In this document: positions 1 through 11,353 of the stretch, in pieces
Layout: the number at the start of each line of letters is the position of its first letter
How positions within the stretch are numbered: position 1 is the first letter of the stretch
Assembly: GCA_015057955.1 (NCBI GenBank)
Contig: SVDE01000014.1
Coordinates: 1-34,592, forward strand
Source: Lachnospiraceae bacterium
GTDB taxonomy: Bacteria > Bacillota > Clostridia > Lachnospirales > Lachnospiraceae
Reading direction: 5' to 3'
Length of the DNA stretch: 34,592 nt
Notes under the pieces: generated by a model
Told to the model about the DNA's origin: nothing
Databases searched by the model: none
Seen by the model: the letters and a program-made list of their open reading frames with translations, nothing else
Made by a program: the position numbers and the translations under genes

Positions 1-172
1 GTGTTATCAGACCTACAGTCGAAATCCCGGAATTGACCATGTTGGACAGAGGGAAGTCGATAAGTCTGTATCTTCCGCCGAACGGCAGGCTCGCAACCGG
101 ACGTTCCTCGGTAAGGACGCCGAATTCATCAATGTTGTAGTTTGTGGATATAAGACCCATTAAGCTTTTCAT
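1..172 (-). CDS. glgD: Glucose-1-phosphate adenylyltransferase regulatory-like subunit GlgD, N-terminal part (truncated by window edge)
   Basis: Reverse-strand translation from ATG at 172: [54 protein letters not shown]...; overlaps the glgC stop (ATGA). Confidence 0.85.
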
Positions 173-1335
173 TCTGAGGCACCTCCTTTTTTAGGGTAAA
201 CAGCACTGTCTCCGATGACAGCAATGTGGTTAGGTGCATCATCAAGCTGCATGCCGTCAAGGATGGTGTTTTCAAGAACAATGCTTTCCTCACCGAGGAT
301 CGCGCGCCTTACATGGGCATTTGCCTCAATGCGGGCACCCGGAAGTATTATGGAGTCCTCAACGGTTGCCCCGTCTCCGACATAAACATCGGAGGACAGG
401 ATTGAGTGGTTCACGCTGCCTAGTATGACACATCCGTTGCATACAAAGCTTGACCGTACAAGTCCTCTTCGACCGATGTACTGAGGAGCGGAAAGGTTGG
501 AGTTTGAATAGATCTTGAGTTTGCTGTCGAAAAGATCAAACTCAGGATCGTCAGCCATGAGCTCCATCTGGGTATTGTAGTAGCTGTCAATCGTTCCGAC
601 ATCTTTCCAGTAGCCGGAAAACGTATATGCATAAAGGGGATGCCCGTTTTTGAGCATCATCGGGATCACATCACCGCCGAAATCCTTTCCGCTGTTTGGA
701 TCGGCATGGTCTTTGGTAAGTACTTTCTTAAGGACAGAGTATGTGAAGATATAAATACCCATACTCGCAAGATTTGAATCAGGATTCTTTGGCTTCTCAG
801 AAAACTTCGTGATCTTCATGTCCTCGTCGGTGGTCATGATACCGAAGCGGCTGGCCTCCTCCCAGGGGACTTCAATGACAGATACCGTAAGATCCGCGTT
901 CTTCTCCTTGTGGAATGCAAGCATCTCACTGTAATCCATCTTGTAGAGCTGATCTCCTGAAAGAATGACAACATACTGAGGATCATATCTCTCAAGAAAG
1001 TCGAGGTTGCGGTATATGGCATCAGCGGTACCTTCGTACCATTTTCCGCCTGTCTCGGTATAGTAAGGGGGAAGAATATGGAGACCGCCGTCAGGATTGT
1101 CAAGGTCCCATGCACTTCCGTTGCCGAGATAGGAGTTCAGGATAAGCGGCTTATACTGAGTCAGGACTCCCACGGTGTCAATTCCGGAATTTGTGCAGTT
1201 TGATAGCGGGAAGTCAATGATACGGTATTTCCCGCCGAAAGCCACGGCGGGTTTGGCATTTCTTTTGGTCAATGCTAAGAGGCGGCTCCCCTGTCCGCCT
1301 GCGAGAAGCATCGCTACAAGCTCCTTCTTTCTCAT
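169..1335 (-). CDS. glgC: Glucose-1-phosphate adenylyltransferase
   Basis: 388 aa; [44 protein letters not shown] nucleotidyltransferase motif; [10 protein letters not shown]; left-handed beta-helix C-terminus; glycogen gene context. Confidence 0.96.
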
Positions 1336-1367
1336 TTCATCCTCCTTTTATTACGATGAATTTTTTT

Positions 1368-3785
1368 TCAGACTTTCCAGATCTCGTTTGCATATTCCCT
1401 GATCGTGCGGTCACTTGAGAATGTGCCTGCTTTCGCGATATTGATAAGGGACATGCGGTTCCATTTCTCAATGTCGCGGTAATCTGTAGTCATTCGTTTC
1501 CATGTATCGAGATAGTCTGCAAAATCCTTAAGGACGAAGTATTCGTCGTTGCGGTACAGCAGATCGCCGTATACATTGTTGAACTGACGGCGGCTTGTTC
1601 CTAAAGTGCCGTTAGTAAGGCTGTCGACAATGGCTTTGAGGCGGCCATCGCTCATGTATGCCGCATTTGCCGAATAGGACTTATCCTTCCACATCCTTTC
1701 AGTCTCTTCGGATCTGAGACCAAAGATATAGATATTGTCATCTCCTACAAGATCATGGATCTCCACGTTAGCGCCATCAAGGGTTCCGAGAGTAACGGCA
1801 CCGTTGAACATGAACTTCATGTTTCCGGTTCCGGAAGCTTCCTTACCGGCTGTTGATATCTGCTCGCTGATATCCGCAGCAGGGTAGACGATCTGGCCCA
1901 GCGAGACATTGTAGTTCTCAAGGAAGATGACTTTGAGCCTGTCATTTACAGCCGGATCAGCATTGATGGTGTCAGCAACAGTACAAATGAGGGAGATGAT
2001 CTCCTTTGCAAGTATGTACGATGCAGCCGCCTTGCCTGCAAATATGAACGTCGTCGGAGTTATGTCCGCAAGGGGATTTGATTTCAGTTCATTGTATAAG
2101 GCCATTACCTTGAAAATGTTAAGGTGCTGCCTCTTGTATGCGTGTATCCTCTTGACCTGTACATCGAATACGGAATCAGGATCGACTTTAATGTGGTTCG
2201 TACGGGCAATGTAATCCGCGAGCCTGACCTTGTTTTCCCGCTTGACTTCTGAAAGCCTGTGCAGAAATCCCGGATCATCCTTGTATTTCAGAAGGTCTTC
2301 AAGCCTGAAGGTATCAGTCATCCATTCGTTGCCTAGGGCCCTGTTAAGGAGAACGGTAAGAGGGCGGTTGGACTCGATCATGAACCTCCTGTGGCTGACG
2401 CCGTTGGTCTTGTTGTTGAATTTATCCGGAGTCAGCGTGTAGAAATCGTGGAGCGTATCTGCCTTAAGGATATCGCTGTGAAGCGCGGCAACGCCGTTCA
2501 CAGAATAGCTTCCTATGACGGAGAGGTTCGCCATGCGGACCTGGCCGTCCCAAAGAATGGCAGTGCTCTGGATCATCTGGCCGATGTCGGATCTTCCGGT
2601 GAGAGTCGCCTTATAGCGGCGGTCAATCTCTTCAATGATCTTGTAGATCCTCGGAAGAGTCCTGGAGAACATGTCTATGGACCACTTCTCAAGAGCTTCA
2701 GGAAGTACAGTATGATTTGTGTAGGAAACGGTCTTCCTTACTATTTCCCATGCCTCATCCCATTCGAGTTTTTCCTCGTCAATGAGAACCCTCATGAGTT
2801 CGGGAACGCACATGGCGGGATGGGTGTCATTTATATGGATCGCGATCCTGTCAGAGAACTTGTCCCAGGCATTGCTGCCGTATTCGAGTTTGTATTTGCG
2901 TACGATGTCGGTAATGCCGGCGCAGACAAAGAAATATTCCTGCTTAAGCCTCATCTCGCGGCCTTTTTCAATGCTGTCGTCAGGATAAAGGACATAAGAA
3001 AGGCTTTCGGCTTCGATCCTGTCTTTAGATGCGTTGGCATAATCGCCTCTGTTGAATGCGGCAAGGTCAAAAAACTCTTTATAAGGCTTGCTGCTCCAAA
3101 GGCGCAGTGTGTTTACGGTCCTTCCGCCGTAACCGACAATGGCTACATCATAAGGAATGGCAAGAACATATGTTCCGCCTGTGTGTTCGACACGGAGTTT
3201 GCCGTTTTCCATGTATTCGTTTACTGTTCCGCCGTATCTGACCTTTACAGATTCTTTAAGCTTTACGGCTTCCCATGCGTAGTAATCATTCAGCCATGAA
3301 TCAGCCAGCTCTATCTGGTTTCCTGATTCGATCTTTTGTTTAAAGAGACCATACCTGTAGCGGATACCGACACCGGTGGCGTTGATGCCGAGAAATGCGA
3401 GCGAGTCAAGGAAACATGCGGCAAGTCTTCCGAGACCGCCGTTTCCGAGGGCAGGATCATTCTCAACTTCGCTCAGAGTATCCAGGTCCATTCCGAGTTC
3501 TTCAAGATACCGGGATACTGTATCAAGTTCACCAAGATTGAGGAGATAGTTTTTAAGGAACCTTCCCACAAGAAATTCAAGGGAGAAATAGTAAACCTGT
3601 TTGTTCCTCAGCTGGGAGTATCTTTTTTCAGTTGCCCTGCGGATGGAGACCGCATGGTTCCATATGACTTTTGCCAAGGCGGTAAAACGTTCTTCGTCGT
3701 TGCAGACTGTAAGATTTTTGCCGAACAGTTCTTCGGCCTGTGCTTCAAATTGTTCCTGAAAATCTTTTTTGTTGTTAAATATCAT
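1368..3785 (-). CDS. glgP: Glycogen/maltodextrin phosphorylase
   Basis: 805 aa; NDTHPA, VKRIHAYKRQHLN, EASGTGNMKFMFNGAVTLGTLDGANVEI PLP-site motifs. Confidence 0.97.
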   Translation of the reverse strand: MIFNNKKDFQEQFEAQAEELFGKNLTVCNDEERFTALAKVIWNHAVSIRRATEKRYSQLRNKQVYYFSLEFLVGRFLKNYLLNLGELDTVSRYLEELGMDLDTLSEVENDPALGNGGLGRLAACFLDSLAFLGINATGVGIRYRYGLFKQKIESGNQIELADSWLNDYYAWEAVKLKESVKVRYGGTVNEYMENGKLRVEHTGGTYVLAIPYDVAIVGYGGRTVNTLRLWSSKPYKEFFDLAAFNRGDYANASKDRIEAESLSYVLYPDDSIEKGREMRLKQEYFFVCAGITDIVRKYKLEYGSNAWDKFSDRIAIHINDTHPAMCVPELMRVLIDEEKLEWDEAWEIVRKTVSYTNHTVLPEALEKWSIDMFSRTLPRIYKIIEEIDRRYKATLTGRSDIGQMIQSTAILWDGQVRMANLSVIGSYSVNGVAALHSDILKADTLHDFYTLTPDKFNNKTNGVSHRRFMIESNRPLTVLLNRALGNEWMTDTFRLEDLLKYKDDPGFLHRLSEVKRENKVRLADYIARTNHIKVDPDSVFDVQVKRIHAYKRQHLNIFKVMALYNELKSNPLADITPTTFIFAGKAAASYILAKEIISLICTVADTINADPAVNDRLKVIFLENYNVSLGQIVYPAADISEQISTAGKEASGTGNMKFMFNGAVTLGTLDGANVEIHDLVGDDNIYIFGLRSEETERMWKDKSYSANAAYMSDGRLKAIVDSLTNGTLGTSRRQFNNVYGDLLYRNDEYFVLKDFADYLDTWKRMTTDYRDIEKWNRMSLINIAKAGTFSSDRTIREYANEIWKV

Positions 3786-5803
3786 TTTTGTTCCTTTTTC
3801 TTATCAGTGGTTTTTTTCGCGGCCTTTTTCTTCGCAGGTACCTTTATCGCCGGATTCTTCATCTTTTCAGTCAGGGTGAAGATGATACCTGAAATGGGAG
3901 GCAAATGGAATACAAGAGTCTGATCCAGACCATGATTCTCATCGGTAGTAGTCTTGATCGGAGAATCATTGACTGCGCCGGATCCTCCGAACCGCTCCAT
4001 GTCGGTGGTCAGTACTTCTTTGTAGATACCGTATTCCGGAACTCCGATGCCGTAATCAGGGAAATCTATGGTCGACATGTTGAATACGCAGACGCATATG
4101 TCGCCTGTGACTGTATCAGTCCGGTAAAAGCTCAATACGCTCTGAGAACGGTTGTCCGCATCTATCCACCTGAAGCCTTCCCAGCTGAAATTATCCCTCC
4201 AGAGTGCCGGCGTTTTAAGGTAGAGCAGGTTCAGCATCCTGATGAAATCCAGATGCTTGCGGTGGCTGTCGAAGTCGAGCAGAAACCATTCCAGCGGCTC
4301 GTAAAAACGCCATTCAATGAACTGACCGAATTCATTGCCCATAAAACTGAGCTTCGAACCCGGATGGCAGATCTGGTACATGGCCAGGACTCTGAGACCT
4401 GCAAACTGGTCATTATAATAACCGGGCATGCGGCCTATGAGGCTGCATTTTCCGTGAACCACCTCGTCGTGAGAGAAGGGCAGTATGAAATTCTCGGAAA
4501 ATGCATACATCATGGAGAAGGTGAGCAGATTGTGATGATCTCCTCTCCACGGGAAATTAACTGAAAAATATCTGAGGGTGTCATTCATCCAGCCCATGTT
4601 CCACTTGTAGTTGAAACCAAGACCGCCGTCCGAAGGCGGATAGGTGACGAGAGGCCATGCCGTACTTTCTTCAGCCACTGTAAATACGCCCTTGAACTCT
4701 TTTCCGACCATGGTATTGAAATCCTGAAGGAATTTAACAGCCTCAAGGTTTTCTTCACCGCCGTTTTCATTGAATACTTTTTCAGCCGGGTTATTTACTC
4801 CGTAATTGAGATAGAGCATGCTTGACACTCCGTCAACCCTGATGCCGTCAAAATGATACATCGAAAGCCAGTAATGCGCATTGCTCAGCAGAAAGCTCTT
4901 TACCTCGGTGCGGCCGAGATCAAATATGTATGTGCCCCATTCCTTATGGTCTTTTTTCTCATAAAGCTTATGGCCGTTAAACCGTCCCAGTCCGTGGGCA
5001 TCACGGCAGAAATGTCCGGGCACCCAGTCCATGATGACACCGATGCCGGCTTCGTGACATTTGTTCACCAGATACATGAGTCCCTTGGGAGTACCGTATC
5101 TTGAAGTGGGAGCATAATAGCCGGTTACCTGATAACCCCAGCTGCCGTCAAAAGGATGCTCGGCAACAGGCAGCAGCTCTATATGGGTATATCCCATGCT
5201 GCGGACATAAGGGACAAGCTGGTTGGCGATATCCCTGTAATCCATGAATTTCTGGCCGCCTGCATTATCCTCACAGCCATCAGCGCTTTGAGCACTGAAA
5301 GTGCAGGGATGTTCTGCTTCTCCCGGAACACGTGTGTCAGGACCTCTCCAGGAACCGAGATGTACTTCATAAATGTTCATGGGGGACTTAAGCGTGTCAG
5401 ACACGGCTCTTTTTGCCATCCAGTCGCCATCGTTCCATTCGAACCCGTCAAGAAAGCTGATGACAGAAGCTGTCTCCGGCCTTAACTGTGCGGAAAAGGC
5501 ATACGGATCAGCTTTGACAAGTAATTCACCCTCATCAGTTGTAATGAAGAATTTATACAGGTCGCCTTCCTGTGCAGAGGGTACGGTTGTGCTCCAGACA
5601 CCGCTGCTCTCAAGAGGGCTTAAAAAGAATTCATCCTGCCGCCAGTCATTGAAAGAACCGGCAACTGTTACTGATCGGGCACCGGGAGCCCATACCGAAA
5701 AAACGATGCCGCCTTCTGCAGAAGGATGGGCACCCATATTTTCGTAAGCGCGCAGCAGAGTCCCCTGATTAAATAGATACAGATTATCTGATGACCAGCC
5801 CAT
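3782..5803 (-). CDS. glgB: 1,4-alpha-glucan branching enzyme with Lys/Ala-rich C-terminal tail
   Basis: 673 aa; CBM48 N-domain (VFSVWAPGARSVTVAGSFNDW), GH13 motifs DGIRVDGVSSMLY, TVAEEST, FSHDEVVHGK; overlaps glgP start. Confidence 0.96.
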   Translation of the reverse strand: MGWSSDNLYLFNQGTLLRAYENMGAHPSAEGGIVFSVWAPGARSVTVAGSFNDWRQDEFFLSPLESSGVWSTTVPSAQEGDLYKFFITTDEGELLVKADPYAFSAQLRPETASVISFLDGFEWNDGDWMAKRAVSDTLKSPMNIYEVHLGSWRGPDTRVPGEAEHPCTFSAQSADGCEDNAGGQKFMDYRDIANQLVPYVRSMGYTHIELLPVAEHPFDGSWGYQVTGYYAPTSRYGTPKGLMYLVNKCHEAGIGVIMDWVPGHFCRDAHGLGRFNGHKLYEKKDHKEWGTYIFDLGRTEVKSFLLSNAHYWLSMYHFDGIRVDGVSSMLYLNYGVNNPAEKVFNENGGEENLEAVKFLQDFNTMVGKEFKGVFTVAEESTAWPLVTYPPSDGGLGFNYKWNMGWMNDTLRYFSVNFPWRGDHHNLLTFSMMYAFSENFILPFSHDEVVHGKCSLIGRMPGYYNDQFAGLRVLAMYQICHPGSKLSFMGNEFGQFIEWRFYEPLEWFLLDFDSHRKHLDFIRMLNLLYLKTPALWRDNFSWEGFRWIDADNRSQSVLSFYRTDTVTGDICVCVFNMSTIDFPDYGIGVPEYGIYKEVLTTDMERFGGSGAVNDSPIKTTTDENHGLDQTLVFHLPPISGIIFTLTEKMKNPAIKVPAKKKAAKKTTDKKKEQK

Positions 5804-5927: not shown

Positions 5928-5956
5928 TTGACTAATGATAATACAGATAGTATAAT
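5928..5956 (+). promoter_or_regulatory. SigA-type promoter for the alpha-oxoamine synthase operon
   Basis: TTGACT (5928-5933) N17 TATAAT (5951-5956), divergent from the glgB promoter. Confidence 0.8.
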
Positions 5957-6015
5957 ATTTGGGACTTTTTTTATGCTGCGCATTTTTAGGGAAAATGCAG
6001 TTATGGGGAGATTTT

Positions 6016-7194
6016 ATGAAAGATTTTTTTGCAAAATGTTATGAACCTCAGTTACAGGATCAGTTAAGGGAGAAGAATATCTACCCTTATTTCAGGGCTC
6101 TTGAATCCAGGCAGGATGTTGAAGTTATCATGGAGGGGAAACGCCGCATCATGCTCGGATCAAATAACTACCTTGGATTGACGGTCCAGCCGGAAGTGAT
6201 CGAAGCCGGCATCAAGACCATGGAAAAACTCGGAACGGGTTGTTCGGGATCAAGGTTCCTCAACGGAACTCTCCAGCTTCACTACGAGCTCGAGGACGAG
6301 CTTGCAAGATTCCTCGGCAAAGAAGCGGTAATGACTTTCCCGACCGGTTTTTCATCAAACCTTGGTATCATATCAAGTCTGGTAACCAGGCATGATTATG
6401 TAATCCTTGACAGAGAAGATCATGCTTCGATATATGATGCCGCAAGGCTCTCATACGGCAAGATGCTCAGATACAGGCATGCCGACATGGCCGACCTTGA
6501 GGAACAGCTCAAACTTGTTCCGGAACAGTGCGGCGCGCTCATCGTAACCGACGGCGTGTTCTCAATGGGCGGCGACATAGCAAAGCTTCCTGAAATATGT
6601 GAGCTTGCTGAAAAATACGGCGCAAGAGTCATGGTTGATGACGCTCATGGCCTCGGCGTTCTCGGTGAAGGCGGAAGAGGAACCGCAAGCTATTTCCACC
6701 TTGAGGACAAAGTTGACATCTACATGGGAACATTCAGCAAGTCGCTTGCTTCACTTGGCGGCTACATGGCTGCTGACGCCCAGATCGTTGATTATGTACG
6801 CCATACATCACGTCCGTACATGTTTGCCGCATCCATACCGCCGGCACAGACAGCTGTCGCGCTTGCTGCGTTAAGATATCTGGAGGCTCATCCGGAGCTC
6901 CCCGAAAAACTCAGCAGCATTGCGGCGAGATTCAGGAAAAACCTCAAGGAAAGGGATGTGGCGATCATCGAAGCTCCCACACCCATTGTTCCGATCTATA
7001 CATATGAACCGGAGAATACACTCATTAAAAATACCCAGATCTACGAGGCCGGGGTATATACAAATCCGGTGCTTCCTCCCGCATGTGCTCCGGGTGAGTG
7101 CCTGCTGAGGACAAGCCTCATGGCTTCGCATACAGAAGCGCTTGTGGATGAGGCAGCTGACATTATTGCTGAGGTTATGCATAGAGAGCAGTGA
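6016..7194 (+). CDS. PLP-dependent alpha-oxoamine synthase, serine palmitoyltransferase-like
   Basis: ORF begins at 5959, but this lies against the -10 box; ATG at 6016 follows GGGGAG. Motifs GSNNYLGLT, GTGCSGSRFLNGTLQLHYELE, DREDHASIYDAARLS, DGVFSMGGDIAKLPE, VDDAHGLGVLG, GTFSKSLASLGGY (PLP lysine). Confidence 0.85.
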   Translation: MKDFFAKCYEPQLQDQLREKNIYPYFRALESRQDVEVIMEGKRRIMLGSNNYLGLTVQPEVIEAGIKTMEKLGTGCSGSRFLNGTLQLHYELEDELARFLGKEAVMTFPTGFSSNLGIISSLVTRHDYVILDREDHASIYDAARLSYGKMLRYRHADMADLEEQLKLVPEQCGALIVTDGVFSMGGDIAKLPEICELAEKYGARVMVDDAHGLGVLGEGGRGTASYFHLEDKVDIYMGTFSKSLASLGGYMAADAQIVDYVRHTSRPYMFAASIPPAQTAVALAALRYLEAHPELPEKLSSIAARFRKNLKERDVAIIEAPTPIVPIYTYEPENTLIKNTQIYEAGVYTNPVLPPACAPGECLLRTSLMASHTEALVDEAADIIAEVMHREQ

Positions 7195-8000
7195 TCAACA
7201 TGTCTGATACAAAGATCGCGATAGTTACCGGAGGTTCATCCGGAATAGGCAAAGCCGTTGCTTCCTGTCTGGCATCTGCCGGCTGCAGGGTTTATGAGTT
7301 CAGCCGCAGGGACAGGGAAAGCACTGAAGCCGTGATCCATGTCGGGACTGATGTTACAGATGAGATATCTGTAAACAGGTCGGTTTCGGAAGTGCTGGAA
7401 AAAGAGGGGCGGATAGACATCCTTGTAAACTGTGCCGGATTCGGCATTTCAGGAGCCGTGGAGTTTACGGAAAACGATGCTGCAAAAAAACAGCTGGATG
7501 TCAATTTCTTCGGGATCGTACGCTGCACGAAGGCAGTGCTGCCCCCCATGAGAAAAGCCGGGAAAGGCCGCATAGTGAACATCAGCTCTGTCGCCGGTCC
7601 CATAGCGATACCGTTCCAGGCTTTTTATTCAGCATCTAAGGCTGCGATAAACAGTTATACGCTTGCTCTTTCAAATGAAGTAAAAAGATACGGCATCACG
7701 GTATGCGCCATAATGCCCGGAGACATCGCCTCGGGCTTTACAGAAGCCAGGGAGAAGACCATAGCCGGTGATGATGAATACGGCGGCAGGATATCAAAGA
7801 GTGTCCGTGTCATGGAGCATGATGAACAGACAGGCATGTCTCCTGAAAAAGCGGGAGCATACATCGCAAAGATCGCACTGAAGAAGAACGTCAAGCCGCT
7901 TTATGCCATCGGGTTCGTATATAAACTGTTTACGGTACTCATCAGGATCCTGCCATGCAGGCTGTCCAATTGGATACTGGGTCTGATCTATGGAGGCTGA
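7191..8000 (+). CDS. Short-chain dehydrogenase/reductase with hydrophobic C-terminus
   Basis: VTGGSSGIGKAVA Rossmann motif, NCAGFG, ISSVAG, YSASKAA catalytic YxxxK; C-term LYAIGFVYKLFTVLIRILPCRLSNWILGLIYGG. GTG 7191 overlaps the upstream stop; ATG 7200 is an alternative start. Confidence 0.88.
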   Translation: MINMSDTKIAIVTGGSSGIGKAVASCLASAGCRVYEFSRRDRESTEAVIHVGTDVTDEISVNRSVSEVLEKEGRIDILVNCAGFGISGAVEFTENDAAKKQLDVNFFGIVRCTKAVLPPMRKAGKGRIVNISSVAGPIAIPFQAFYSASKAAINSYTLALSNEVKRYGITVCAIMPGDIASGFTEAREKTIAGDDEYGGRISKSVRVMEHDEQTGMSPEKAGAYIAKIALKKNVKPLYAIGFVYKLFTVLIRILPCRLSNWILGLIYGG

Positions 8001-8003
8001 CTC

Positions 8004-8417
8004 TTGATAAAAGCTGAGAAAGTCAAACTTATGGCACAGACGGTACTGTATGAGAAGGGCCAAAAAGGAGAGAACATAACTCTCAGATCGTACTGCGAAA
8101 AAGATGCAGGCAGGTTTAAAGCCTACAGCATCTTTGCAGGAGTGATCACGTATCTTCTGATCGCTTTCGTGGTATTCCTGATAGCAGGCGCAGATATTTC
8201 AGTCATGGAAGGAAAACCGTTCCTGATCGCTTTCGCTATCGCGGCAGCAGTTATTTCGGGGACCGTGTTCACCATACTCTATGCAGGGATATTGAGGAAA
8301 GTCGTCGCTTCCAGATACAGGAATGTCAGGAGCAGCATGGTGAGCTATGATCTGCGCAGGAGAAAGCTCAGACAGATGACGCAGGAAGGCAAAACAGAAA
8401 CCAGTCCCACAGAATGA
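8004..8417 (+). CDS. Uncharacterised small membrane protein (two predicted TM helices)
   Basis: 137 aa; TTG start 8004 preceded by GGAGG; hydrophobic segments AYSIFAGVITYLLIAFVVFLIAG and FLIAFAIAAAVISGTVFTILYAG. Confidence 0.7.
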   Translation: MIKAEKVKLMAQTVLYEKGQKGENITLRSYCEKDAGRFKAYSIFAGVITYLLIAFVVFLIAGADISVMEGKPFLIAFAIAAAVISGTVFTILYAGILRKVVASRYRNVRSSMVSYDLRRRKLRQMTQEGKTETSPTE

Positions 8418-9421
8418 AGATACTGCTTACGATAAGAAACAGAATAGAGACAGTTTTTAACCGGTTCCCAATGGCTCTGAGATTTGTTCTGCGGCTGCTG
8501 ATCAGTTTCTTTGTGCTTCTTGCGGTAAGAAACGGCCTGGGGTATAACGCCCTGCTCTCACATCTCTGGTTCGTGATCGCTTTTTCGGTGGTATGCGCAT
8601 TCATACCGGTCAGGGTGCTGCCTCTGGTATTAGGTGCATATACCGCGGTGCAGATAGTATCACTTTCGGTAGGGGTTGCAGTGACGGCATTTATCATCAT
8701 GGTGATCATTTACCTTATGTATCTGAGGCTCAATGCCAGATACGGATACGTGCTGCTGCTGATGATGCTGGCATGTGTGCTCAGGATACCTCTTGTCATA
8801 CCTCTGGTGCTTGCTGTATCCATGCCGATGAGTTCGATCGCTGTTGTGATAAGCGGATGCATCGTTTATTACATGCTCCACTACATAAGCATAAATTCAG
8901 CCGTGATCACAGGATATACCGAATCCGGAGAACTGGCCACTGCGTCAGTTTTCATAAACGGACTGCTGACATACAAGGAATTTGTTTATACATTGATACT
9001 GCTGGCCCTGGTATTTTTCATTGTATATTTTGTTAAGAAGATAAACATGAACAGGGCAAATGACATGGCGGTGGCTATCGGTGCCGGCGCGTATGTCATA
9101 ATGGCGCTTATAACACATGTCATACTTAGCTCACTCACATTCCAGAGGCTGAGGACGATCCTGATCGGAACAGCGGTTGCCCTCGTACTGGCATTGCTGG
9201 CTGAAAACATTATTATGCCTGTTGATTTCAGCAAGGCAGAACTTCTGGAATTTGACGATGAGGAATATCATTATTATGTAAGGGCTGTCCCGAAGGTTGC
9301 GCTTGACAGGGAAAATGTGCGCATCACCAGGATCAGCGGCAGGAAAAAAGCACCGGTGGCAAAAAAAACTGAACAGACATCTAGAAAAGACGCCGCACCG
9401 GCGGCTGAAGGGAGGAAGTAA
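8414..9421 (+). CDS. Uncharacterised polytopic membrane protein upstream of cdaA
   Basis: 335 aa; multiple hydrophobic helices, then a cytosolic-looking tail LLEFDDEEYHYYVRAVPKVALDRENVRITRI...; ATGA overlap with the previous ORF. Confidence 0.8.
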   Translation: MKILLTIRNRIETVFNRFPMALRFVLRLLISFFVLLAVRNGLGYNALLSHLWFVIAFSVVCAFIPVRVLPLVLGAYTAVQIVSLSVGVAVTAFIIMVIIYLMYLRLNARYGYVLLLMMLACVLRIPLVIPLVLAVSMPMSSIAVVISGCIVYYMLHYISINSAVITGYTESGELATASVFINGLLTYKEFVYTLILLALVFFIVYFVKKINMNRANDMAVAIGAGAYVIMALITHVILSSLTFQRLRTILIGTAVALVLALLAENIIMPVDFSKAELLEFDDEEYHYYVRAVPKVALDRENVRITRISGRKKAPVAKKTEQTSRKDAAPAAEGRK

Positions 9422-9423
9422 AC

Positions 9424-10320
9424 GTGAGCAGTATATGGCATACACTTGTTTCATATATAAGGCAGTATTTCTCGATAACTTCGATATCTGTGAGCGATAT
9501 TATTGAGATGCTGATAATCGCGTTCCTCTTTTATGAGATCATGCTGTGGTTCAAGAAGACCAGGGCGTGGGCTCTGTTCAAGGGCATAGTGATCATCCTG
9601 GTCATAGTCCTGGCGGCAGCGGTACTCCAGTTCAATACTATCCTCTGGATCGCGAGTAAAACGGTCGGGGTAGGCTTGATCGGTATCATTATCATATTCC
9701 AGCCTGAATTGAGGCGTGCTCTCGAACAGCTCGGAAAAGGAAAACTCTACCGTAAGATACTGGGCGTTGGCAGGGACAAGATCAGGATATCTGACAGGGA
9801 CATTGATGAGATCCTGGAAGCGGTAAGGGTAATGAGCGATGCCCATACCGGCGCCCTCATCTGCCTTGAAAAGGACATCGGCCTCGGTGAATATGAAAAT
9901 ACAGGAATAAAACTGGATAGTGACATATCCAGGCAGCTGATAATAAATATATTTGAAAATAAGACTCCGCTTCATGACGGTGCGATCATCATACGCGATG
10001 ACAAGATCGTTGCGGCGACATGTTATCTGCCCATGTCTGAAAACCTGTCGCTCAACAAGCAGTACGGGACCAGGCACAGGGCTGCGGTCGGCCTGAGCGA
10101 AGTCACAGATGCTATGACGATCGTTGTATCTGAGGAGACGGGAGACATATCGATCGCGATGGCAGGCGAACTGGAAGAAAAGGTCAGCGTGACTGATCTT
10201 AAGAACCGTCTGCTCACATACCAGAAGTCCGGGATTGACAGCGGACTGATCAGCAAAATAAAGAAAGGAGCCGGCACTGATGAAATTCAAACAGTTAGTT
10301 CAGAAGTGGATAATAAATAA
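9424..10320 (+). CDS. cdaA: Diadenylate cyclase CdaA (DAC domain, TM N-terminus)
   Basis: GTG start; N-terminal TM helices; FQPELRRALEQLGKG; LHDGAIIIRDDKIVAATCYLP and GTRHRAAVGLSE DAC motifs. Confidence 0.95.
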   Translation: MSSIWHTLVSYIRQYFSITSISVSDIIEMLIIAFLFYEIMLWFKKTRAWALFKGIVIILVIVLAAAVLQFNTILWIASKTVGVGLIGIIIIFQPELRRALEQLGKGKLYRKILGVGRDKIRISDRDIDEILEAVRVMSDAHTGALICLEKDIGLGEYENTGIKLDSDISRQLIINIFENKTPLHDGAIIIRDDKIVAATCYLPMSENLSLNKQYGTRHRAAVGLSEVTDAMTIVVSEETGDISIAMAGELEEKVSVTDLKNRLLTYQKSGIDSGLISKIKKGAGTDEIQTVSSEVDNK

Positions 10321-11353
10321 CTGGCAATACAAACTGCTGGCTCTTGTATTTGCGTTTATACTCTGGCTGGTGATCGTAAATATCCAGGATCCGGAGATCA
10401 CAAGGACCATTTACGGAATACCGGTAGTAAGTGAGAATGTTGAAGCTCTTGAGGGCGATGATTATGTGTGGTCGATAGCTTCAGGCGAGACTGCCACGGT
10501 AGTCGTAACCGGAAAAAAGAGCATTGTCGGAGGTCTGACAGTAAATGATTTCTATGCATATGCGAACTATGAGGAGCTCTCGTTAACGCATGCCATTCCG
10601 ATCAAGGTCCAGCTCACGGGCAGCAAGACGGTTTACGCAAACGATGTCAGCATCAGAGTACAGACTACGAGCATGATACTTACGCTCGAAGATATCTCAA
10701 GCAAACTGATCCCTGTTGAGGTCGTGTATGTTGGCGACCTGCCTGAAGACAAGAGCATGGACTCGGTGACGGTTGATCCCAAAGAGATAGAAGTCAGGGC
10801 TCCGAGCAGCACGCTTGATACGATCACCAGGATAGAAGCTGTCATCAATACTGATGATGTAGCGAATGGAGTGACATTAAGGGCAACTCCTGTACTGTAT
10901 GACTACACCGGAAGCGTGGTGAGCATAGGCGTTGATGACATATCAACGAACTGCAGCGAAGTATTGGTGTCTTTTGAAATAAGCAGCATTAAGACGGTTG
11001 AACTGAGGGCAGGTACTTCCGGCACGCCGGCGGAAGGATATGAAGTAGGCAACATCTCATACTCATTTGATTCTGTGGTGCTGAAGGGCAGCGAAGAAGC
11101 TCTGGAAGGCCTGGACTACATAAGGATACCAAACTCAAGGGTTTCCCTTGCAGGCGCGAAAGAAGATGTAGTGGTAAAGGTTGATATCACCGAATATCTT
11201 CCTGAGGGAGTAGAGATATTTGACAATAACATAAACGTGGTGATAACAGTAAGGATAAGGGAGAAACCGACAGAGACCACTACGGCCGAGACTACATCGG
11301 AGACGGTGGCAGCAGATGCTGCGGCGCAGGAGACCACGTCTGCCCAGCCCTGA
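10280..11353 (+). CDS. cdaR: YbbR-domain regulator CdaR
   Basis: Single N-terminal TM (YKLLALVFAFILWLVIVNI) followed by YbbR-like repeats; overlaps cdaA by 41 nt; Thr-rich C-terminal tail. Confidence 0.9.
   Translation: MKFKQLVQKWIINNWQYKLLALVFAFILWLVIVNIQDPEITRTIYGIPVVSENVEALEGDDYVWSIASGETATVVVTGKKSIVGGLTVNDFYAYANYEELSLTHAIPIKVQLTGSKTVYANDVSIRVQTTSMILTLEDISSKLIPVEVVYVGDLPEDKSMDSVTVDPKEIEVRAPSSTLDTITRIEAVINTDDVANGVTLRATPVLYDYTGSVVSIGVDDISTNCSEVLVSFEISSIKTVELRAGTSGTPAEGYEVGNISYSFDSVVLKGSEEALEGLDYIRIPNSRVSLAGAKEDVVVKVDITEYLPEGVEIFDNNINVVITVRIREKPTETTTAETTSETVAADAAAQETTSAQP

Follow-up and report, generated by a model that had tools for sequence, protein, structure and literature searches.

A serine palmitoyltransferase-like synthase paired with a KdsR-like reductase in Clostridia: candidate first steps of long-chain-base lipid synthesis

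We analysed a 34,592-nucleotide stretch of DNA (the window), positions 1 to 34,592 of contig SVDE01000014.1 of a gut/rumen Lachnospiraceae bacterium (assembly GCA_015057955.1). Two adjacent genes of the forward strand, encoding an alpha-oxoamine synthase (AOS) and an SDR, were the focus of the analysis, and their features and neighbours are collected in the table. The AOS and SDR reading frames share 4 nt if the SDR starts at the GTG codon. An earlier note on this DNA had described such an overlap and had quoted the AOS motifs; both reading frames were located where the note had placed them, and the AOS motifs were identical letter for letter. Both proteins matched NCBIfam families over their full length, with E-values far beyond chance (4e-150 for the AOS and 2e-76 for the SDR). 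The SDR is followed on the same strand by genes for two membrane proteins (MP1 and MP2), cdaA, cdaR, galE and a sugar transferase gene. On the other side, an ordinary glycogen cluster (glgC-glgP-glgB, 169-5803) occupies the minus strand, divergent from the AOS.

Table. Features of the AOS-SDR locus and its 3' neighbours (window positions)
Feature	Position	Strand	Remarks
Promoter-like site TTGACT-17-TATAAT	5928..5956	+	upstream of the pair; 11/12 matches in a consensus scan that gave, in total, no more such sites than in shuffled sequence
Predicted ribosome-binding site GGGGAG	6005..6010	+	5 nt ahead of ATG 6016; direct sequence reading
AOS	6016..7194	+	SPT-like alpha-oxoamine synthase, 392 aa, start ATG 6016
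SDR	7191..8000	+	KdsR-like reductase; 269 aa from GTG 7191, or 266 aa from ATG 7200
SDR hydrophobic C-terminal tail IGFVYKLFTVLIRILPCRLSNWILGLIYGG	7905..7997	+	predicted, likely membrane-binding
MP1, small membrane protein	8004..8417	+	no Pfam/NCBIfam match; genus-level neighbour
MP2, polytopic membrane protein	8414..9421	+	no Pfam/NCBIfam match; genus-level neighbour
cdaA, diadenylate cyclase	9424..10320	+	TIGR00159, 257 bits (cut-off 189)
cdaR/YbbR, CdaA regulator	10280..11353	+	PF07949

The AOS was compared with known enzymes by family models, structure and phylogeny. First, its top NCBIfam model was the Bacteroidota serine palmitoyltransferase (SPT) model SerpalmtaseCFB (NF047600) at 500 bits, against 388 bits for the other SPT model, 366 for Kbl and 359 for BioF. 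All these scores were below the cut-offs of the respective models, and the 500 bits fell short of the curated NF047600 equivalog cut-off of 640. None of the clostridial SPT-like sequences tested reached 640 either (highest, 597 bits), and the sub-cut-off score of the AOS fits a separate clostridial clade. In addition, the closest solved structure in the PDB by sequence was the SPT of Sphingobacterium multivorum (3a2b; E=1.6e-115, 389 bits, 47% identity), and the same entry was nearest to the AlphaFold model of the AOS (pLDDT 85; TM 0.94). Finally, a tree was built from 46 proteins, comprising clostridial sequences, SPTs of Bacteroidota and Sphingomonas, cysteate fatty acyltransferases (CFATs), Kbl and BioF. 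The clostridial AOS formed one clade (support 97/90), which joined the biochemically verified Bacteroidota and Sphingomonas SPTs at 95/95, and the cysteate enzymes, Kbl and BioF all lay outside this grouping. AU tests rejected the union of the clostridial AOS with Kbl (p=0.0015) and with BioF (p=0.0019).

The active site of the AOS was read from alignments. The catalytic residues H136, D208, H211, K242 and R365 were all present and corresponded to H159, D231, H234, K265 and R390 of the Sphingomonas SPT, whose positions were taken from the literature (PMC6148460). At these positions H, D, H, K and R were found in 26/26 clostridial AOS. The SPT signature, GSRxLNGT plus TFSKS, was likewise carried by all 26 and was missing from CFAT, Kbl and BioF. 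In its place, GARMMSG/TFAKS or a close variant occurs in the cysteate enzymes, SVRFICG in Kbl and a separate motif in BioF. The window AOS carries the form GSRFLNGT, and this motif and TFSKSLASLGG are common to it and the Bacteroidota SPT. Although the two are alike in sequence, fold and catalytic residues, the window AOS belongs to a separate clostridial clade, scores 500 bits where the Bacteroidota cut-off is 640, adjoins a reductase gene and has Ser in GC[S/A]GSR, where the Bacteroidota SPT has Ala. The earlier note had judged the AOS to be nearer to bacterial SPT than to BioF or Kbl and had proposed a phylogeny as the check. NCBIfam scores, PDB matches, tree and motifs agreed with that judgement, the AOS falling outside BioF and Kbl and together with verified SPTs. 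By these comparisons, the AOS is classed as SPT-like and as neither BioF nor Kbl.

Among the 225 NCBIfam families that matched the SDR, the best model was KDhSphingRedKdsR (NF049977) at 257 bits (3-267/267), below the curated equivalog cut-off of 400. The window SDR was the closest to this KdsR model among 17 matches in its genome, and the runner-up scored 134 bits. A cofactor motif (TGGSSGIG) and the triad S130/Y143/K147 (numbered from ATG 7200) were identified, and both were kept in the partner SDRs. The triad and the Gly-rich cofactor motif are features that the window SDR shares with 3-ketosphinganine reductases, namely KdsR and BT_0972 of Bacteroides thetaiotaomicron (PMC9278070). The match to the KdsR model extends over the full length and includes the C-terminal tail, but at the sub-cut-off score; BT_0972 is likened to the window SDR by description, and the clostridial SDR is linked to the synthase gene in most clostridial genomes. 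The tail pattern G-YK-LP-N-I-Y was common to nearly all clostridial partner SDRs, and the tail formed two helices in the predicted structure. This tail likely binds the membrane. A fold search with the SDR model returned generic SDRs only. Thus, the YxxxK site and the hydrophobic C-terminal segment reported in the earlier note are both present, and the tail is conserved.

The association between the two genes was assessed in several ways. First, of 39 clostridial loci obtained in the first scan of the collection, 32 had the SDR beside the AOS, and each genome with one of the remaining 7 loci had a full-length KdsR-like SDR elsewhere. The arrangement in other families was AOS-SDR in 5 genomes, SDR-AOS in 4 and divergent in 12, and in the phylum-wide sample the SDR was divergent at 5/6 loci. 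Second, a KdsR-like SDR (counted at a score of at least 190 bits) was found in 31/35 clostridial genomes with an SPT-like AOS and in 1/45 without (Fisher p=1e-16, a value that is overstated and indicative only, since the genomes share ancestry and most of the negatives belong to the same family and order as the window). The one clear exception in this comparison was a genome of the same order (G049, 5.9 Mb) with three KdsR-like SDRs (208-228 bits) and no SPT-like AOS. Third, the pairwise distances of AOS and SDR were correlated (r=0.76; 0/5000 permutations), as common descent alone would also yield. No third conserved gene was found beside the pair in 50 clostridial loci, and a Pfam search of its immediate neighbours returned unrelated genes, among which no noteworthy family recurred. 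The AOS and the SDR are functionally coupled and form a real module. Linkage, co-occurrence and family score support the proposal that the SDR is the partner of the AOS; for reduction of the AOS product by the SDR, linkage and co-occurrence are indirect evidence.

An SPT-like AOS was present in 14/14 genomes of the window's genus, where all matches besides the AOS were weak and spurious; the sampled genomes of other genera of the same family were without it. In the class sample, 49/391 Clostridia genomes (approximately 12%, the window's included) had an SPT-like AOS, at 455-597 bits. Sixteen BioF/Kbl-type AOS of the same sample scored 405-416 bits, clearly apart from this range, and the three that were checked matched BioF/gly_Cac_T models. 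The phylum sample contained SPT-like AOS in 20/399 genomes. The pair had earlier been noted as occurring in a Firmicute, which holds, but the scope was understated, because it is found throughout Clostridia and in further classes of the same phylum. One contig titled 'uncultured Sutterella' (L015, 3381-5350) also bore an AOS-SDR pair of clostridial type that falls within the clostridial clade; this contig is probably mislabelled or mis-binned.

We consider it probable, from the sequence comparisons, that the AOS and the SDR catalyse the two opening reactions of a lipid pathway of the long-chain-base (sphingoid) type. Family, catalytic residues, the exclusion of BioF and Kbl and the gene coupling are the computed part of this reading. 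In the first step, the AOS, a PLP enzyme, would condense a long-chain acyl-ACP or acyl-CoA with an amino acid, for which L-serine is the most likely candidate; CO2 would be lost, and the product would be 3-ketosphinganine or a closely similar 3-keto base. In the second step, the SDR, which its hydrophobic tail would keep at the membrane, would use NAD(P)H to turn the ketone into an amino alcohol of the sphinganine type. We infer serine as the substrate, the acyl donor, the chain length and the order of ketone before alcohol. Two orders have been published: in Bacteroides the keto group is reduced first, by the SDR BT_0972 (PMC9278070), and in Caulobacter N-acylation precedes reduction, for which a different, periplasmic enzyme is used (PMC11087976). 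For the window pair, the reduction-first order is favoured over the CerS-first order by the presence of a linked classical SDR. SPT is the first enzyme both here and in the Caulobacter Spt-bCerS-CerR pathway (PMC11087976, PMC11324152), whereas CerR of Caulobacter has been described as an NDUFA9-like, periplasmic protein and the window reductase is a classical SDR. Another difference from the Caulobacter pathway is that no gene for CerS, a dedicated ACP or an acyl-ACP synthetase lies beside the window pair. As a proxy for bacterial ceramide synthase we used PF04339 (FemAB type), a family to which Caulobacter CerS may belong; it had no match in the 14 genus genomes and did match in Caulobacter. 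Given that no known N-acyltransferase accompanies the module, the pathway may end in an unmodified long-chain base or in a newly decorated one.

Four other readings of the pair were weighed. The one that survives best, although we regard it as unlikely, is that the SPT-like enzyme uses alanine or glycine and makes 1-deoxy or 1-deoxymethyl bases, or a mixture. The site equivalent to Asn100 of the Sphingomonas enzyme is Ser in 25/26 clostridial AOS and Ala in Bacteroidota, so that the clostridial site is unlike both verified SPT groups and the choice between serine and alanine or glycine is not readable from the sequence. 1-Deoxyceramides have also been reported from anaerobic bacteria (PMC11334938), which counts for this reading; on the other side, the rest of the active-site motif is identical to that of the serine enzymes. 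It is very unlikely that the AOS is a CqsA-like enzyme of secondary metabolism or signalling, with a short- or medium-chain amino ketone or alcohol as a signal and not a membrane lipid as the product. Pairs of AOS and reductase do also make signals, and no lipid head-group or N-acyl gene adjoins the pair in any arrangement. However, the CqsA model gave the AOS only 177 bits, the SPT motif is fully kept, and the SDR tail suggests a membrane substrate. CqsA and HemA were rejected as identities of the AOS on their low scores.

The capnine/sulfonolipid pathway (CFAT, PDB 28eh and 7u7h; KCR, PMC11211663) combines an AOS and an SDR reductase by the same logic and the same chemistry, and the AOS could accordingly be read as a CFAT and the SDR as a 3-ketocapnine reductase. 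Topology alone would allow the clostridial AOS to group with the cysteate acyltransferases (AU test, p=0.31), and a Fluviicola genome has, besides a CFAT-like AOS (L117), a KdsR-like SDR (L119) that shares 43% identity with the window SDR in the best-matching segment and is a candidate ketocapnine reductase. Nevertheless, this reading is highly improbable: the CFATs are set apart on a long branch as a separate clade (support 100/100), the CFAT signature PMGARMMSG/TFAKS occurs in 0/26 clostridial AOS, all of which carry the SPT signature, and CFAT 28eh gave the AOS 224 bits as against 389 for SPT. Clade and active-site motif are thus distinct from those of the window AOS, and a CFAT identity was rejected on motif and score. 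Lastly, a role of the AOS as BioF or Kbl, in biotin synthesis or in threonine/glycine metabolism, can be practically dismissed, because despite the common fold the AOS scores below the BioF (TIGR00858, 359 vs 426 bits) and Kbl cut-offs (TIGR01822, 299 vs 493; NF005394, 366 vs 460), the clade tests reject both, its partner is a KdsR-like SDR, several other Clostridia carriers (L110-L113) have a true Kbl as a second AOS beside the SPT-like gene, and neither BioB nor Tdh exceeded its cut-off in any of the 14 genus genomes, which makes biotin and threonine roles unlikely. The earlier note had named firm placement within BioF or Kbl, in a genome whose biotin or threonine pathway lacks another such enzyme, as one finding that would speak against its proposal; with the AOS outside both and the genus without BioB or Tdh over cut-off, the long-chain-base reading stands.

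The 3' neighbourhood of the pair was peculiar to the genus. MP2 adjoined the pair, in single copy, in 14/14 genus genomes, of the clostridial loci that were fetched, only L001-L005 had an MP1-homologous reading frame, and cdaA and cdaR lay 3' of the pair wherever the locus was read (L001-L005). Flags for an in-frame TGA in MP2 were interpreted, from the L001 coordinates, as an overlap of the MP2 stop with the start of cdaA and not as recoding. The cdaA-cdaR context was absent outside the genus in the fetched loci and is therefore not part of the AOS-SDR module. Since the pair is directly upstream of MP1-MP2-cdaA-cdaR, lipid-base and c-di-AMP synthesis may share a transcript, and the gene order suggests that the pair is co-transcribed with cdaA-cdaR in this genus.

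A clostridial SPT/reductase pair was not described in the open-access literature that we searched (subscription literature was outside the search), and we regard the pair as new representatives of an established pathway, in a group that is under-recognised for it, and not as a new kind. Clostridia are, to our knowledge, not normally counted among sphingolipid makers, and Bacteroidota are usually regarded as the source of those gut sphingolipids that reach the host. At least one recent vaccine study measured only the spt of Bacteroides (PMC12816596). A wider picture, which we put forward only tentatively, is that about one in ten Clostridia, gut and rumen lineages included, makes sphingoid-type lipids via the SPT/KdsR module, that the product may be a free long-chain base or have a new head group or acyl link, and that in one genus transcription couples this synthesis to the c-di-AMP cyclase. 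If this is true, the clostridial module (49/391) would represent a second producer group in gut and rumen, which current annotation would miss or mislabel as BioF/Kbl. Concrete genes and a single-contig genome are now at hand for experiments.
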